Positions 40,135 through 50,630 of a stretch of 64,000 bases of DNA are shown one piece after another; positions within the stretch are counted from its first letter, which is position 1; each line of letters starts with the position of its first letter. A program made the position numbers and the translations under genes. The DNA is from Candidatus Corynebacterium gallistercoris (GTDB taxonomy: Bacteria > Actinomycetota > Actinomycetes > Mycobacteriales > Mycobacteriaceae), in contig DXFZ01000057.1 of NCBI GenBank assembly GCA_019114175.1, positions 1-64,000 of the forward strand, written 5' to 3'. Under the pieces are notes generated by a model, which did not search any database, was not told the origin of the DNA, and was given only the letters and a program-made list of their open reading frames with translations.

Positions 40135-40167
40135 CACCCCACGCCAGCGGGGTTGGGGCGTGGGGTG
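40135..40167 (-). terminator. 11-bp hairpin terminator between convergent genes
   Basis: Perfect arms CACCCCACGCC (40135-40145) and its complement (40157-40167) with an 11-nt loop. On the minus strand it is followed by TTTTAC, so it best terminates the LeuA-like gene; it can also form behind the YbdK gene. Confidence 0.7.
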
Positions 40168-40187
40168 GCGTCGCAATAAAAAACAAC
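40164..40187 (-). repeat. Dispersed repeat at the end of the LeuA-like gene (inverted)
   Basis: GGTGGCGTCGCAAT followed by AAAAAACAAC. It is noncoding, touches the LeuA-like stop codon and runs into the terminator hairpin, so here the motif is free of any protein constraint. Confidence 0.65.
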
Positions 40188-40804
40188 TACATGTGCAAGC
40201 GGCTCGCCGCATTGCATAGCGCGTTGGCGATGGACAGGTCGCGATCCGCGCCGAAGCCCACGGCCCAGACGCGCTTGGACTTGTGGACGGTGTAGAGGAA
40301 CGTCACGGTCGCCTCAAAGATGCTGTACTGGTGGAACTCCAGGGTCTCGACGGGGAAGCCGTGATCGGCCAGGATTTCGGTCATCGCGCTGGAGGCACCC
40401 ATGGCCTCAATCTCCACGCGGGTGCCCTGCCCGTCGGCGCGCAGGCCCGTCATGGCCAGGGTGAACGCGTGCTTGCCCAGGCTGAGCTTGCGGACCTGCA
40501 GGCTCTCCACGCGGATCGTGGCGGGGGCGTAGGTGCGGATGAACTGCTTCCACTCCATGCCGCGGGCCTCCTGGCGCATGCCTGCGGGGAGGCGCTGGCC
40601 GAAGCGCGCACGGAACGGGTCCTCGGCGAAGGTGCGGGTGCGCTGGCGGCGCTTCTCGATGCGCGTCGGCGTGGTGTTCGTGAACGTCTTGGCCGTGGAT
40701 CGGCGCAGGCGGGGCTCCGCGGTGTAGGTCGCGCGCGGTTCGTCTGGCCGGGCGAAGCGGATGAGGGTGGTGGAGTTCATGGTGCTTTCAGAGTCAAAGT
40801 TCAT
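40187..40804 (-). CDS. Stand-alone LeuA regulatory (dimerisation) domain protein
   Basis: A 205-residue protein with no catalytic HMGL barrel. After a basic N-terminal half, residues about 105-205 follow the leucine-sensing LeuA_dimer pattern: VRKLSLGKHAFTLAMTGL, GQGTRVEIEAMGASSAMTEILADHG, HQYSIFEATVTFLYTVHKS, VWAVGFGADRDLSIANALCNAASRL. In 2-isopropylmalate synthase this domain binds leucine. No leuA is nearby. A role as a free leucine sensor or as a partner of LeuA is inference. The leader upstream looks attenuator-like. The start at 40804 has AAGGGA nine bases before it. Confidence 0.75.
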   Translation of the reverse strand: MNFDSESTMNSTTLIRFARPDEPRATYTAEPRLRRSTAKTFTNTTPTRIEKRRQRTRTFAEDPFRARFGQRLPAGMRQEARGMEWKQFIRTYAPATIRVESLQVRKLSLGKHAFTLAMTGLRADGQGTRVEIEAMGASSAMTEILADHGFPVETLEFHQYSIFEATVTFLYTVHKSKRVWAVGFGADRDLSIANALCNAASRLHM

Positions 40805-40808
40805 GGCT

Positions 40809-40860
40809 GTTGGTCCCTTGGCAGGTCTCGCTGATGGTTGCGGTGTGCTGGTGGACCAAC
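40809..40860 (-). promoter_or_regulatory. Stem enclosing the LeuA-like gene's ribosome binding region
   Basis: On the minus strand GTTGGTCC (40860-40853) pairs exactly with GGACCAAC (40816-40809), the second arm overlapping the Shine-Dalgarno AAGGGA just before the start. The pairing could hide the ribosome site. A smaller AAGCG/CGCTT hairpin lies just upstream. Confidence 0.45.
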
Positions 40861-40881
40861 TCTTAAAGCGGTAGGCGCTTC

Positions 40882-40924
40882 ACCCCGGTGTGGAGGGGTT
40901 AGCCCTAGCTACCTCCACCCGGGT
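40882..40924 (-). promoter_or_regulatory. GC-rich leader hairpin overlapping the leader peptide
   Basis: Arms built from CCCGGGTGGAGG and CCTCCACACCGGGG (minus strand), with a small bulge, form a strong stem whose 5' arm is the end of a 15-codon leader reading frame. A ribosome pausing on or finishing that frame would change the folding. Confidence 0.45.
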
Positions 40925-40952
40925 TGGGTACTCGCTTCAAGATAATGCTCAT
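40905..40952 (-). CDS. Candidate leader peptide upstream of the LeuA-like gene
   Basis: A 15-codon frame reads MSIILKRVPNPGGGS and stops with TAG. It has no Shine-Dalgarno, but its ATG lies 8 nt after a -10-like TACATT, as expected for a leaderless transcript, which actinobacteria commonly use. The adjacent Ile-Ile-Leu codons near the start could sense branched-chain amino acid supply. It overlaps the GC-rich leader hairpin. Confidence 0.4.
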   Translation of the reverse strand: MSIILKRVPNPGGGS

Positions 40953-40960
40953 GACATAAC

Positions 40961-40990
40961 AATGTAATCCGCATCACCCGGGGTTGGCAA
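40961..40990 (-). promoter_or_regulatory. Candidate promoter of the LeuA-like gene
   Basis: On the minus strand TTGCCA (40990-40985) and TACATT (40966-40961) are 18 bp apart, a reasonable housekeeping promoter that would start transcription at or just before the leader-peptide ATG (40952). Confidence 0.45.
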
Positions 40991-41010: not shown

Positions 41011-41035
41011 CTGTTATTTTTGGTGCGACGCCGCC
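41011..41035 (+). repeat. Dispersed repeat at the 3' end of the M20 peptidase gene
   Basis: CTGTTATTTTTGGTGCGACG followed by CCGCC. On the minus strand it encodes the last residues VAASHQK and includes the TAA stop. With the copy at 40164-40187 in opposite orientation it brackets the LeuA-like gene and its leader. Confidence 0.65.
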
Positions 41036-42423
41036 ACGCGCGCCAGGAACAACAGCTCTGCCGCCGCGATATCGCGTATTTCGCTGGGGGCCACGGACTC
41101 ATCGGCGGAGTGAATGCGGCACAGGGGCTCCTCGATGCCGTACAGCGCCAGCTCCGCGCCTGGGAACTGGGAGAGCAGCTTGTTGGTCAGCGGGATGGAG
41201 CCGCCGGAGCCGACCTCGATGGTCTCCTTGCCATAGACATCGCTTAGGGCTTGTGTGAGGCCGCGCAGGTACGGGCCGGAGGTGTCCGCGCTGAAGGCTT
41301 CGGCCAGGCTGACGCGCTCGATCTCCATCTGCGCGTTGACGTTCTTTTCTTGTTTCTGCTTTTCCAGGTGAGCGATGAGCGTGTCCTGGGCCTCCTTGGG
41401 GTCCATTCCCGGTGGCACGCGCAGGCTCACCACCGCGCCGGCGTATCCGGGCACGGAGTTGATGGAGTCCGCCACGGAGAGCGAGTCCAGTCCGGTGATG
41501 GTGATGGAGGGGTTGGTGACGGTGAGGTCGTTGGGTGCCCAGCCGGAGTCCTGGCCGAGGACATCCACGCCTTCGAGGACGCCCGCGTTGTCCCGGAACG
41601 TGGCCTCATCGGGGCCCACGCCCTGCCAGCGGGTGGTGGGGGTGAGGCCCTCCACGGCCACGAGGCCCTGGTCATCGTGCAGGGTGCCGAGCAGCTTGAT
41701 GAGCTCCACCAGGGCATCCGGTGCGGCACCGCCGTATTGGCCGGAGTGCATGGGCTGGGCGATGGTCTTGAGCTTCACGATCACGGGGGCGGAGCCGCGC
41801 AGGGCGGTGCAGATGCTGGGCTCGCCTAGGGCATCGTTGCCGGAGTCCGCGATCATGAACAGGTCGGCTTCGAAGAGCTCGGGTTGGGCTTCGAGGAGGT
41901 CCTCGAGGCCGTAGCCGCCGCGCTCTTCGGAGCCTTCCACGATGACGCGGATGCCGAGCTTGCCCAGCTCCGGGTGTTCTGCTTGGAGCTGCTTCATAGC
42001 CTCCAGCACGGCCACGTGCATGACCACGTGCCCCTTGCAGTCCGCGGCGCCGCGGCCGTACCAGCGGCCATCGCGTTCGGTGAGGGTCCAGGGGTCATTG
42101 GTCCACTCGGCGGCGTCGCCTGCTGGTTGGACATCGAAGTGGCTGTAGAGCAGCACGGTGGGGAAGCCCTCTGCGGCCTCGCGGTGGCCCACGATGGTGG
42201 TGGAGCCATCGGTGGTTTCGATGCCTTCAACGCTGATGCCGGCGGCGCGGTAGGTGTCAATGGTCCACTGCGCTGCCCCGGCGTTGTGCTCTTCTAGTCC
42301 GGGAGTGGAGTGGACGGACTGGAAGGCCACGAGTTCTTTGAGGTTGTCAAAGATCTGCGGCATGCGTTCCTCGATGAGGGAGAGTACCTGTGCTTTGTCT
42401 ATTGCCTTGTCCATGGTGTTCAT
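41014..42423 (-). CDS. M20-family metallopeptidase (dipeptidase)
   Basis: A 469-residue zinc peptidase. Motifs: VLLYSHFDVQPAGD (first metal His/Asp), GRGAADCKGHVVMHVAVL with the bridging Asp, EGSEERGGYGLEDLL with the catalytic Glu pair, a dimerisation domain in the middle, and a late SGGSIPLTNKLL. The start at MNTMDKAID (42423) is chosen because the upstream in-frame stretch covers the CIRCE operator. Likely role is dipeptide hydrolysis in the cytosol. Confidence 0.9.
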   Translation of the reverse strand: MNTMDKAIDKAQVLSLIEERMPQIFDNLKELVAFQSVHSTPGLEEHNAGAAQWTIDTYRAAGISVEGIETTDGSTTIVGHREAAEGFPTVLLYSHFDVQPAGDAAEWTNDPWTLTERDGRWYGRGAADCKGHVVMHVAVLEAMKQLQAEHPELGKLGIRVIVEGSEERGGYGLEDLLEAQPELFEADLFMIADSGNDALGEPSICTALRGSAPVIVKLKTIAQPMHSGQYGGAAPDALVELIKLLGTLHDDQGLVAVEGLTPTTRWQGVGPDEATFRDNAGVLEGVDVLGQDSGWAPNDLTVTNPSITITGLDSLSVADSINSVPGYAGAVVSLRVPPGMDPKEAQDTLIAHLEKQKQEKNVNAQMEIERVSLAEAFSADTSGPYLRGLTQALSDVYGKETIEVGSGGSIPLTNKLLSQFPGAELALYGIEEPLCRIHSADESVAPSEIRDIAAAELLFLARVAASHQK

Positions 42424-42485
42424 GGTCTTCCACTCTAACGCTTCGGCCGGTGCGGGCCGGGCCACACCTTGCAGCCGCTGGGGTG

Positions 42486-42530
42486 GAGTGCTAAAAACGA
42501 GACTTAGCACTTGGATAAACAGAGTGCTAG
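42486..42530. promoter_or_regulatory. CIRCE operator with a third half-site (HrcA control of groEL)
   Basis: TTAGCACTT (42504-42512), 9 nt, GAGTGCTAG (42522-42530) is a CIRCE element, the HrcA binding site for heat-shock repression. A further half-site, GAGTGCTAA (42486-42494), lies exactly 9 nt upstream of the first, so three half-sites alternate in orientation with constant spacing. It is 120 bp upstream of groEL and close to the divergent peptidase start. Confidence 0.88.
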
Positions 42531-42632
42531 ATAAAAACACCGTCAGATGCAGTGAGGGTGGGCGCCGCGACATTCGCCCATCCGGCCGTCGCGGGCGCTG
42601 GGTCTGAGCCGTACGTGTCGCGCCAACTCTAA

Positions 42633-46790: not shown

Positions 46791-49700
46791 TCAGCCCCAG
46801 ACCTCGATCGGGTTGCCCTGCCAGCGCGTGGCGGTGGGCACCTGGTCGCCCCGCATCACCAAGGACGCCGGCCCCACCACGGCCGCATCTGACACGTGAG
46901 CAGACGGTAAGACTACTGAGTGGGGGCCGATGGTGGCGCCGTCGCCCACAACTACCTCACCCAAGCTCATGACGCGATCCTGGAACAGGTGCGTCTGCAG
47001 CACGCAGCCCGGCCCCACAGAAGCCCCGGCGCCGACCCGCACCAAGTCCGCCTCCGGCAGCCAATAGGAATCCAGCCAGGCACCGCGGCCCACCTTCGCG
47101 CCCAGGCAGCGCAGGAAAACGTTCAAGCTGCCCGTGCCGAGGGTGTGGGAGAGGAACCACGGGCCGGCGACGGTCTCCACGAACTGATCCTGCAGCTCAT
47201 TGAGCCACACGAACTTGCTCCACAGGACGTGATCGCCAGCGGCAATCCGGCCCACGCATAGCCACTTCACCGCCACGGTCAGCACGGCGGCCACCAGTCC
47301 GGCCGCCACGAGGATCAACCCGGAGGCCAGCAGCGCGCCCACCACACCGAAACGCATGAGCATCCCCTGCCACGCCCACACGCAGCCGCCCGCAATCGTC
47401 GCAGAGGCCATGGGGGCGGTCAGGCGGAGCGTCTCCACGGCACCGCGGGCGGCTTTCACGCCGAAGCCGGGGTTGTAGGTGCGGGCCTCGCTCTCGGTGT
47501 CCACGGTGGACCGGCGCAACCGCTCCGGTGGGGAACCGATCCAGTTGGAGCCGGACTTCGTCTTCGCCGGAGTAGAAGACAGCACAGCCACCAGGGAGTT
47601 CTTCTTCAGGTGACGTTCCGGGCCAGCGATGCCGGAGTTGCCCAGGAAGCTGCGCTTGCCGACCCGCGTGTGGCCGGTGCGCATCCAGCCGCCGGGGCCG
47701 AGCTCGTAGCCGCCGACCATCGTGTCATCGGCCAAGAACGCGCCCTCCTTCACCTCGGCGAACCGCGGCACCATCACGGCCGTGGAGATCTCCGCATCCT
47801 TGCCCACCTTCGCGCCTAGGGCCCGGAACCACAGCGGTGTTAGCTGCGCGGCATAGAGGGGGAACAGGTGGGTTCGGGCGGCGTCCATGAGGCGCTGGAT
47901 CGCCCACACGCGCCAGCCGGTGGCGCTGCGCACGGGCGTCACACCAGGAGTTAGACCCACGGAAAGCGCCCGCACCGCAAGGAACGTCAAACTCACATAC
48001 ACCCCGAAGGCGGCCAACCCAGCCACGGCCGATAGGCCCACCACGGCGGGGAGGGTTGGGGCGGTGGCGTCGCTATCAAGAACAACAAGAACCACCGCGG
48101 CGCCGCACAAGACAGCCAACCACGGCAGCGCGGCCAAAGCCACGGCCGTGGCGGCGAAGGCCCAGACCCAGCCGCGAACCCGAGGAGCAGGGGAATCGGG
48201 GAACGCGGAGCGGGCCTTACCCACCTTCTTCGCCGGAGAACCGGCCCACCGCTGCCGGGCCTTGACCTTGCCCATCACGGCGGAGCCGGGCTCCACGTAC
48301 GCCCCCGCGCCGATCCTCGTGCCCGGAAGCAACACGCTGCGCGCACCGACGGTGGCTCCGGTGCCGATGCGGATTTCGCCCACGTGCAGCACGTCCCCCT
48401 CCAGCCAGTGGCCGGAAAGATCCACCTCCTGCTCCACGGCGGCGGCCTCGCCCAAGCGCAGCAGGCCCGTCACCGGGGGCAGGGAGTGCAACTGTACGTC
48501 CTTGGCCACCGTTGCGCCCAACCAGCGCGCGTAGGTGGACATCCACACCGCGCCGGAAACGTCCAGGGCGCCGGAGGTATCGGCGATGCGCTCGGCGGCC
48601 CAGATGCGCAGGTGAACGCTACCGCCGCGGGGATAAGAGCCCGGCGTGATGCCGCGGGTGAGCAGGCGGATGATCGCCGCGGACAGGGGCAGGCGGCCAA
48701 GCGGGGTGGCGAACACCACCACCAGAAGAACGCACAGCCACACAGGCACCGCCACGGCCCACGCCACGCACGCCGCGGCGAGGAACGCGTTGGCCACGCA
48801 CAGCCACGTCACCCAGCGGGCGCCCGCCAGCGTGAGCGCCGGAACCTGCCAGGCTGCCTGTGCCAGCCGGGTGCGCCAGCCGACCGGCTGAGCGGGTTCG
48901 GAGGGTGCGGCGGCAGCCTGGCCAGCGCCGCGCAAGGAATCCACGTAGGCGGCGAAGGCTCCCAGCCGGGAGTGGTCGTACAGATCCCGCACGCTCACCG
49001 TGGGCACCTCCTGGCGCACCCGGCCAATAAGGGTGGCCGCGCCCAAGGACGTGCCGCCCAGGGTGAAGAAGTCCGCGCCCGCGCTGGTCACAGCGGTTCC
49101 CAGCGCATCGGACCACAGCCCCGCCAGCCAGGCCTCGGTCTCCGTATCGAAGTGCGCCTCCCCGCGGGAGGGCAGCGGCCACGGCAGGGCCTTCTTGTCC
49201 ACCTTGCCGCTGGTGGTCACCGGCAGCGAGTCCAGCGGGCAGAGCCTTGGCACCATGGCGGCGGGCAGGCGCGCGGCCAGGTCCGCTTGTGCTGCGGTGA
49301 CATCAAAGTCATCCGCACTCCCGGCCTCCGGGGAGACGTACCCCACCAGCACCTTGTCCCCGCCACCGGTGGTCTGTACCACCACGGCGGCGCTGCGAAC
49401 ATTATCCAGGGCGGCCAGCGCGGCATCGATTTCTCCCAGCTCAATACGCCGCCCGCCGATCTTCACCTGGTCATCCACGCGGCCCACGAAGTACAGGCCA
49501 TCGGCCTCCAGGCGGACGTGGTCGCCGGTGCGGTAGGCACGCTCCCAGCCGAGGGTCTCCATCGGCGCGAACTTCTCCGCGTCCTTGGCCGGGTCCAGGT
49601 AGCGGGCCAGGCCCACGCCGCCGATGATGAGCTCGCCGGTCTCACCAACGGCCACAGGCTGGTTGTCCCCGTCCACCACGGCCAGGTCCCAGCCATCGAG

Positions 49701-50630
49701 CGGCAGGCCGATGGACACCGGCGAGGCCCCGTCCATTTGCGCGCCGCAGGCCACCACGGTTGCCTCCGTGGGGCCGTAGGTGTTCCACAGCTCGCGGCCG
49801 GGGGTGGCCAGGCGGCGGGCGAGTTCCGGCGGGCAGGCCTCGCCGCCGAAGATGAGCAGCCGCACGGCGTCCAGAGCCTCGTCCGGCCAGAGTCCGGCCA
49901 GGGTGGGCACGGTGGAGACCACGGTGATGGACCGGGCGATCAGCCACGGGCCCAGATCCACGCCGGAGCGGACAAGCGCCCGCGGTGCCGGCACCAGGCA
50001 CGCGCCGTGCCGCCAGGCGAGCCACATTTCCTCGCAGGAGGCATCGAAGGCCACGGATAGGCCGGCGAGCACTCGGTCGCCGGGGCCGAGCGGCTGGTCC
50101 TGGCAGAACATGCGCGCTTCCGCGTCCACGAAGGCCGCCGCGGATCGGTGCGTCACGGCCACGCCCTTGGGCTTGCCGGTGGAGCCGGAGGTGAAGATGA
50201 TCCACGCGTCGGTCTCCAGGTCCGGGCCGGTGGTTGTTGTTTTTTGGTGCGACGCCACCCCCACGTACTCAAACCCCGCAGCCGTGAAGTGGCCGGCCAC
50301 GGCGGCCTCCCCGAACACGAGATCTGCGCGCTCTTGTGGGTCGTCAGCATCAACGGGAACGTAGGCCGCTCCAGCGGCGATGGTGGCGAGGATGCTGATG
50401 TATAGCTCCCGGTCGCCCGAGGGCATGCGGATGCCGATGCGGTCGCCACGCCTGATGCCTGCGGCGTGAAGGTCGGCGGCGCGCTCGGTGATGAGGCTGA
50501 TGAGCTCTCCGTACGTGACCACGCCCCGGCCATCGTCGATGGCTGGGGCGTCTGGGTGGTTGTCCGCGGTGGCGTGGAGGATGTCCAGCAGTGTGCGTGG
50601 GGCGGGGGCGTGGTCGCTGCGGAGGAACAT
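46791..50630 (-). CDS. Pls/PosA-type membrane nonribosomal peptide synthetase
   Basis: A 1279-residue A-T-membrane enzyme. The adenylation domain (1-480) has FTSGSTGKPKG at 146-156, NTYGPTE at 283-289, YRTGD at 366-370 and TSGKVDKKAL with Lys476. The carrier domain (about 500-560) has LGGTSL with Ser528 for phosphopantetheine. Three membrane pairs (about 600-650, 820-890, 1075-1125) alternate with three soluble blocks rich in left-handed hexapeptide repeats (about 700-800, 935-1035, 1170-1275). This is the layout of epsilon-poly-lysine synthetase, whose C-terminal blocks polymerise one amino acid. Pocket residues D196, A197, E200, S239, I260, G262, T284, V292, V293, K476 suggest a basic amino acid such as lysine. 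It is coupled to the MarR gene upstream. The C-terminal blocks differ from classical condensation domains. Confidence 0.9.
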   Translation of the reverse strand: MFLRSDHAPAPRTLLDILHATADNHPDAPAIDDGRGVVTYGELISLITERAADLHAAGIRRGDRIGIRMPSGDRELYISILATIAAGAAYVPVDADDPQERADLVFGEAAVAGHFTAAGFEYVGVASHQKTTTTGPDLETDAWIIFTSGSTGKPKGVAVTHRSAAAFVDAEARMFCQDQPLGPGDRVLAGLSVAFDASCEEMWLAWRHGACLVPAPRALVRSGVDLGPWLIARSITVVSTVPTLAGLWPDEALDAVRLLIFGGEACPPELARRLATPGRELWNTYGPTEATVVACGAQMDGASPVSIGLPLDGWDLAVVDGDNQPVAVGETGELIIGGVGLARYLDPAKDAEKFAPMETLGWERAYRTGDHVRLEADGLYFVGRVDDQVKIGGRRIELGEIDAALAALDNVRSAAVVVQTTGGGDKVLVGYVSPEAGSADDFDVTAAQADLAARLPAAMVPRLCPLDSLPVTTSGKVDKKALPWPLPSRGEAHFDTETEAWLAGLWSDALGTAVTSAGADFFTLGGTSLGAATLIGRVRQEVPTVSVRDLYDHSRLGAFAAYVDSLRGAGQAAAAPSEPAQPVGWRTRLAQAAWQVPALTLAGARWVTWLCVANAFLAAACVAWAVAVPVWLCVLLVVVFATPLGRLPLSAAIIRLLTRGITPGSYPRGGSVHLRIWAAERIADTSGALDVSGAVWMSTYARWLGATVAKDVQLHSLPPVTGLLRLGEAAAVEQEVDLSGHWLEGDVLHVGEIRIGTGATVGARSVLLPGTRIGAGAYVEPGSAVMGKVKARQRWAGSPAKKVGKARSAFPDSPAPRVRGWVWAFAATAVALAALPWLAVLCGAAVVLVVLDSDATAPTLPAVVGLSAVAGLAAFGVYVSLTFLAVRALSVGLTPGVTPVRSATGWRVWAIQRLMDAARTHLFPLYAAQLTPLWFRALGAKVGKDAEISTAVMVPRFAEVKEGAFLADDTMVGGYELGPGGWMRTGHTRVGKRSFLGNSGIAGPERHLKKNSLVAVLSSTPAKTKSGSNWIGSPPERLRRSTVDTESEARTYNPGFGVKAARGAVETLRLTAPMASATIAGGCVWAWQGMLMRFGVVGALLASGLILVAAGLVAAVLTVAVKWLCVGRIAAGDHVLWSKFVWLNELQDQFVETVAGPWFLSHTLGTGSLNVFLRCLGAKVGRGAWLDSYWLPEADLVRVGAGASVGPGCVLQTHLFQDRVMSLGEVVVGDGATIGPHSVVLPSAHVSDAAVVGPASLVMRGDQVPTATRWQGNPIEVWG
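48063..48086 (-). repeat. Dispersed repeat in the peptide synthetase gene, copy 1 (inverted)
   Basis: GGTGGCGTCGCTAT followed by CAAGAACAAC, encoding VLDSDAT in a variable stretch between membrane segments (near residue 852 on the minus strand). Confidence 0.6.
50233..50259 (+). repeat. Dispersed repeat in the peptide synthetase gene, copy 2 (best match)
   Basis: GTTGTTGTTTTTT followed by GGTGCGACGCCACC, the fullest copy in the window. On the minus strand it encodes VASHQKTTTT (about residues 125-134) between A-domain core motifs, where homologues normally have a short variable loop. Confidence 0.75.

Follow-up and report, generated by a model that had tools for sequence, protein, structure and literature searches.

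A Free-Standing LeuA Regulatory Domain behind a Branched-Chain Leader in Corynebacterium Is Probably an Old Partial leuA Duplicate

Herein, we describe a locus in a window of 64,000 nucleotides of Candidatus Corynebacterium gallistercoris that is probably an old partial duplicate of leuA, in which both regulatory ends, an attenuating leader and a C-terminal allosteric domain, would have been kept and the enzyme lost, giving a leader that may respond to branched-chain amino acids and a product that would act in trans. The candidate sensor protein is conserved in most sampled genera of the family of Corynebacterium, Mycobacterium, Rhodococcus, and Gordonia, and its leader would extend the poorly understood LEU element to a second target and to a new codon specificity. 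The branched-chain pathway is exploited for amino-acid production and has been considered for antibiotics. A literature search, in which subscription journals were thinly covered, turned up no account of this free-standing gene and its leader.

Results and Discussion

Architecture of the Locus

All features of the locus lie on the minus strand (Table 1). A sequence-only reading of this DNA had reported a promoter, a leader frame, a GC-rich hairpin, and a stem covering the Shine-Dalgarno sequence (SD), and all four were present where it had placed them. The two promoter hexamers are separated by an 18-nt spacer and formed the sole site found in the promoter scan, with 0.2 expected by chance. 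The GC-rich hairpin B spans 40923-40883 (-) and overlaps the leader ORF. Downstream of it, GTTGGTCC is complementary to GGACCAAC, a strand that takes in the last three bases (GGA) of the SD AAGGGA. A second complementary partner of GTTGGTCC, overlooked earlier, is the loop of hairpin B, GGGCTAAC. Since GGGCTAAC and GGACCAAC share this segment, the loop pairing and the stem over the ribosome site compete.

An M20-family dipeptidase gene lies directly upstream on the same strand (41014-42573). In many Corynebacterium loci its C-terminal motif, VEEP...IHSADESVDP, is again found 5' of the orphan gene; the neighbors differ in other genera. Farther away, the 1279-aa product of 46791-50630 (-) combines adenylation and carrier domains with hexapeptide repeats and may be a peptide synthetase of a single module.

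Table 1. Features of the Orphan Locus in the Window
Feature	Position	Strand	Basis or remark
-35 hexamer TTGCCA	40985..40990	(-)	sequence; promoter scan
-10 hexamer TACATT	40961..40966	(-)	8 nt 5' of leader ATG; same spacing class in 57/59 relatives
Leader ORF MSIILKRVPNPGGGS-stop	40905..40952	(-)	Ile-Ile-Leu and Val codons ATT ATC TTG ... GTA; peptide conserved in relatives
Helix A 5' strand CTTGAAGCG	40933..40941	(-)	leader codons including Leu; native pairing better than swapped, 0/2000
Helix A 3' strand CGCTTTAAG	40862..40870	(-)	same swap test as 5' strand
Hairpin B 5' arm CCCGGGTGGAGG	40912..40923	(-)	within leader ORF; compensatory changes
Hairpin B 3' arm CCTCCACACCGGGG	40883..40896	(-)	compensatory changes
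C5, hairpin B loop GGGCTAAC, anti-sequestor partner	40898..40905	(-)	begins at last base of leader stop codon; 97.9% of cells pair (47 sequences); swap z = -5.2
Shared segment GTTGGTCC	40853..40860	(-)	partner of C5 (putative ON) or of ribosome site (putative OFF)
D3, sequestor strand GGACCAAC over SD	40809..40816	(-)	swap z = -2.8, 9/2000
SD AAGGGA	40814..40819	(-)	sequence; GGA paired in nested fold
Gene, free-standing LeuA linker subdomain II and regulatory domain (predicted), 205 aa	40187..40804	(-)	disordered basic N-terminus
Terminator-like hairpin and T-run 3' of gene	40136..40153	(-)	about 0.7 expected by chance

The Product Resembles the LeuA Regulatory Domain

The orphan gene is a 205-aa ORF without the catalytic (TIM) barrel of LeuA, and a full-length leuA with its own leader, MITQPARALLLRRGGA-stop, is found on another contig of the same genome. 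No Pfam model was reached by the window protein, PF08502 (LeuA_dimer) included; its best relatives scored 18.8-19.3 bits against PF08502, below the curated cut-off of 24.9 bits. One NCBIfam LeuA model gave a weak match (E 0.059) between residues 85-202 and the LeuA C-terminus. Comparing a profile of 49 relatives with LeuA C-termini gave a probability of 97.5% (E 6.5e-12), and the only PDB sequence matches at E ≤ 1 were M. tuberculosis LeuA entries, with a best E of 0.0017. The AlphaFold2 model (mean pLDDT 82.9, and 88-98 over residues 61-205) showed a (beta3-alpha)2 fold. When this model was compared with 350,542 PDB chains by Foldseek, ranks 1-8 were M. tuberculosis LeuA (best E 1.5e-9) and ranks 9-12 the citramalate synthase regulatory domain. 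As modeled, the protein is a linker subdomain II joined to a regulatory domain, with no barrel. The likeness to the LeuA domain claimed earlier was thus borne out by profile, PDB sequence, and structure matches alike, and the proposed comparison of the predicted fold with LeuA placed LeuA first among all PDB chains. Foldseek matches to Pur-alpha and dsRBD proteins (TM 0.15-0.24) were not accepted as evidence of RNA binding.

The leucine site was compared with the residue list published for LeuA (PMC2704214). In the orphans, Y554 and V551 have mostly given way to Phe and Ile, respectively, both conservative replacements; G531 is replaced by Ala, Ser, or Thr, and A558 mostly by Glu or Asp. Among L535, A536, V551, Y554, and A558, some residues are retained or conservatively replaced, and A565 and A567 align poorly. 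Of the "free-standing leucine sensor" in the earlier reading, the free-standing LeuA regulatory domain stands, and the leucine site itself is altered at G531 and A558. The partly changed ligand site and the failure to reach any Pfam family would fit the decay of a leuA remnant, or else a small generic protein with no sensing role. One apparently broken copy points the same way: at G043:C1:869953-870512 the orphan gene is matched in two pieces with an internal TAA. This reading is nevertheless very unlikely, as gene and leader are kept in about 26 of the 31 sampled genera of the family and G136, A140, W180, and G183 are invariant.

Gene and Leader Occur Together

The orphan gene was found in 97 of 151 sampled Corynebacterium genomes. 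A covariance model based on the hairpin (R1) gave a single match per genome in 86 of the 151, each just 5' of the orphan gene; the element was therefore present in 86/97 genomes with the gene vs 0/54 without it (Fisher p 2e-30). In the 11 remaining gene-bearing Corynebacterium genomes, including the C. jeikeium group, R1 found no recognizable element, which suggests from sequence that the leader was lost or changed there. Loci L004, L005, and L007-L010 of this group kept the gene without an R1 match, and L010 carries another hairpin (GGGCACCC...GGGTGCCC); the leader seems to have been replaced in this group, and control may have been lost or changed.

A wider profile detected free-standing homologues in most sampled genera of the family (about 26 of 31, full-length LeuA matches being left out of this count). 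Their open frames are mostly 150-280 aa long, and carriers include Gordonia, Rhodococcus, and Mycobacterium bohemicum. Other families of the order yielded LeuA itself only, mostly in open frames of 580-660 aa. In several genomes outside Corynebacterium (L208, L212, L217, and L220), the orphan gene adjoins a cluster of tRNA-Val, tRNA-Gly, and tRNA-Cys genes; of these loci, L208 matches the Rhodococcus record L168.

A Leaderless Peptide Rich in Branched-Chain Codons

Of 59 non-redundant relatives, 57 have a TANNNT hexamer that ends 6-9 nt 5' of a start codon (ATG or GTG) in the leader-peptide frame, compared with 3-7 relatives at other spacings and none for shifted frames. This conserved spacing argues that transcription starts at the leader start codon. 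It agrees with the leaderless frame proposed from the window sequence, and it appears to place the start at that codon rather than downstream of the leader, the position that had been named as counting against leader control.

Ile, Leu, and Val make up 40% of the peptide residues that precede the last nine, vs 22% of those in window proteins (p 8e-24). Past the start codon, Leu occurs in 56 of 57 peptides and Val in all 57. Codon choice is also unusual: GTA accounts for 72/98 leader Val codons vs 15/372 in window genes, and CTT or CTA for 59/92 leader Leu codons vs 29/401. Such rare codons for branched-chain residues would suit a sensor of charged tRNA.

Alternative Pairings of the Leader RNA

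Across 47 leaders, hairpin B together with the loop pairing gave 87.2% paired cells, compared with 80.0 in shuffled and at most 50.1 in slid controls. Doubly changed paired cells numbered 106 vs 38 in shuffles, a value that none of 500 shuffles reached. RNAalifold alone returned nine hairpin pairs, seven of them with compensatory changes. In a swap test on 59 leaders, native strands paired better than swapped partners for the loop:segment helix (z -5.2, 0/2000), for the base stem, helix A (z -5.6, 0/2000), and more weakly for the segment:SD helix (z -2.8, 9/2000); shuffle and swap controls leave shared ancestry in. A MAFFT alignment restricted to the 18 closest leaders showed no covariation because its sequences are too conserved and helix A is misregistered; the signal came with the wider set of 47. 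Alignment A4 places helix A out of register. A search of the window's own genome with the hairpin consensus pattern was swamped by chance matches. No leader matched an Rfam 15 riboswitch or T-box at the gathering score, and an Atu_C10 match in the Rfam E-value scan lay on the other strand at chance level and was rejected.

Two lineages vary the scheme. In the C. variabile/glyciniphilum subgroup (L016-L029), the shared segment has its partner in a nearby ACCGAC or CCGAC instead of the SD. Leaders of a longer class (L030-L169) carry an extra conserved helix below the hairpin, GGCTAC:GTAGTC, with compensatory changes to GGCCAC:GTGGTC and GGCTAT:ATAGCC; it is absent from the window's subgroup.

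No intrinsic terminator with a U-run precedes the gene in the window leader, which points to control of translation rather than intrinsic termination. Control through transcription termination, intrinsic or Rho-dependent, as in the ilvB and trp attenuators, would have a precedent in M. tuberculosis ilvB1, which is so controlled and has an LVVI leader (PMC13236596). We regard it as quite unlikely here: the leader lacks a terminator-like site, a point that bears on intrinsic termination and not on Rho, and most relatives have the SD within the alternative pairing, which is stronger between native strands than between swapped ones.

Translation control has a difficulty of its own. The sequestor region of the window is calculated at -18.4 kcal/mol vs -9.4 for the loop helix alone, and the nested fold buries the GGA of the SD at every ribosome position modeled. 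With the sequestor fold stronger and the GGA hidden, an ON state would need a kinetic advantage or stacking outside the model. For the translation-coupled control put forward earlier, the comparative evidence thus favors the branched-chain-rich leaderless frame and the mutually exclusive pairings, and the nested fold that hides the GGA speaks against it. By comparative evidence, the RNA half of the sequence-only reading appears correct, as does its protein fold.

Kinship with the leuA Leader

The LEU element of actinobacterial leuA combines a leader peptide containing a leucine run with a pseudoknot (Seliverstov et al. 2005, PMC1262725). Outside Corynebacterium, the orphan leader peptide is typically MKRILVVHRRSGV-stop or MTRILVVRRRSGV-stop, and the leuA leader peptide of the same genomes is MQRALLLGCRGGV-stop or a near variant. 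Both are typically 13 residues long with an R-x-G-V-stop ending. A covariance model built from orphan leaders only (R2) matched 20 of 20 leuA leaders of the family (E 1e-13 to 4e-7), and within the family it usually found two places per genome outside Corynebacterium. R1 found nothing significant on leuA leaders, nor did R2 on the window leader and the other Corynebacterium leaders. The Corynebacterium leader has drifted too far for this comparison, so that its kinship with the LEU element rests on gene orthology and identical architecture. With a leuA counterpart for both the leader and the protein, a partial leuA duplicate is the simplest history.

Some genomes of the family, such as G238 and G340, have three or four R2 matches, representing extra LEU-type leaders. 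One of those in G238 lies 5' of a second full-length LeuA (C9), and the LEU-type element may have spread along with leuA copies.

The mode of action of the LEU element is disputed. In Streptomyces, leuA leader-codon mutations had results at odds with classical attenuation, and a bound protein was proposed (PMC1262725). By the same argument, the orphan leader could be a protein-binding site, perhaps for its own basic-tailed product, with the peptide a by-product and the switch reporting the level of protein or leucine rather than stalling. The small effect of codon mutations on the leuA element, the basic, disordered N-terminus of the orphan, and the conservation of much leader RNA sequence beyond the pairings all lend this some weight. 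We consider it unlikely since codon identity follows the gene family, with Leu runs before leuA and Ile-Leu-Val-Val before the orphan on the same hairpin; branched-chain codons are, moreover, enriched and drawn from rare synonyms, and the -10 box keeps the distance to the leader start that is expected of a leaderless transcript. With Ile-Leu-Val-Val naturally taking the place of a Leu run on one RNA scaffold, the dispute becomes directly testable.

Proposed Mechanism

For the preferred reading, a partial leuA duplicate with a leader that senses branched-chain amino acids, we suggest the following course. The conserved -10 spacing implies that the mRNA would start at the leader start codon, and a ribosome would enter the leader frame at once. 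Under a shortage of branched-chain amino acids, it would stall at the Ile/Leu/Val codons and leave hairpin B free to form. The hairpin loop would then capture GTTGGTCC and open the ribosome site (ON); covariation supports this pairing, and its timing is conjectural. When these amino acids are plentiful, a ribosome arriving at the stop codon would mask the adjoining loop, and GTTGGTCC would pair with the ribosome site (OFF). The free-standing sensor is thus probably produced when branched-chain amino acids are scarce, as far as sequence comparison can tell.

The protein would act in trans as a regulatory subunit or a sensor of branched-chain amino acids, with LeuA perhaps its likeliest partner. 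Only tentatively do we suggest that it serves 2-isopropylmalate synthase as a separate regulatory subunit, or else binds LEU-type leader RNA, and that it is made only when branched-chain tRNAs are uncharged. If true, the orphan would join LeuA via the shared regulatory domain and retune leucine feedback, and one leuA duplication would have supplied mycolic-acid bacteria with a single unit that contains both a protein sensor and an RNA sensor.

Comparison with Known Systems

IlvN, the separate regulatory subunit of acetohydroxyacid synthase, carries an ACT domain. By analogy, the orphan may likewise be a stand-alone sensor subunit of a branched-chain enzyme, although it has the LeuA fold rather than an ACT domain and its binding to LeuA is only conjectural. 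With the C-terminal domain of LeuA (PF08502; M. tuberculosis 1sr9/3fig), the orphan shares the (beta3-alpha)2 fold and linker subdomain II. It differs in having no TIM barrel, in scoring below the Pfam threshold, in a partly changed leucine site, and in its basic, disordered N-terminus.

Leader peptides have been reported in C. glutamicum and C. diphtheriae for trp, leuA, ilvB, and aroF, and the orphan leader is not among them in the available portions of those reports (PMC4046766, PMC3890552, PMC5784534). Attenuation by a leader peptide has experimental support for M. tuberculosis ilvB1 (PMC13236596). This ilvBNC attenuator, also found at C. glutamicum ilvB, resembles the orphan leader in its leaderless peptide and consecutive branched-chain codons; however, it ends in an intrinsic terminator, whereas the competing stem of the orphan covers the ribosome site.

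The LEU element of leuA shares with the orphan leader the leader peptide, a hairpin over its end, a pseudoknot between loop and downstream segment, and a base stem drawn from amino-acid codons, and homology of the leader sequences is detectable outside Corynebacterium. Several differences set the orphan apart. Its element, as matched by R1, precedes only the free-standing regulatory-domain gene and not leuA; its leader has mixed Ile/Leu/Val codons (Ile-Ile-Leu and Val in the window) in place of a Leu run; and whereas the base stem of the LEU element pairs codons with the SD, the window stem (40941-40933 : 40870-40862) lies upstream of the SD.
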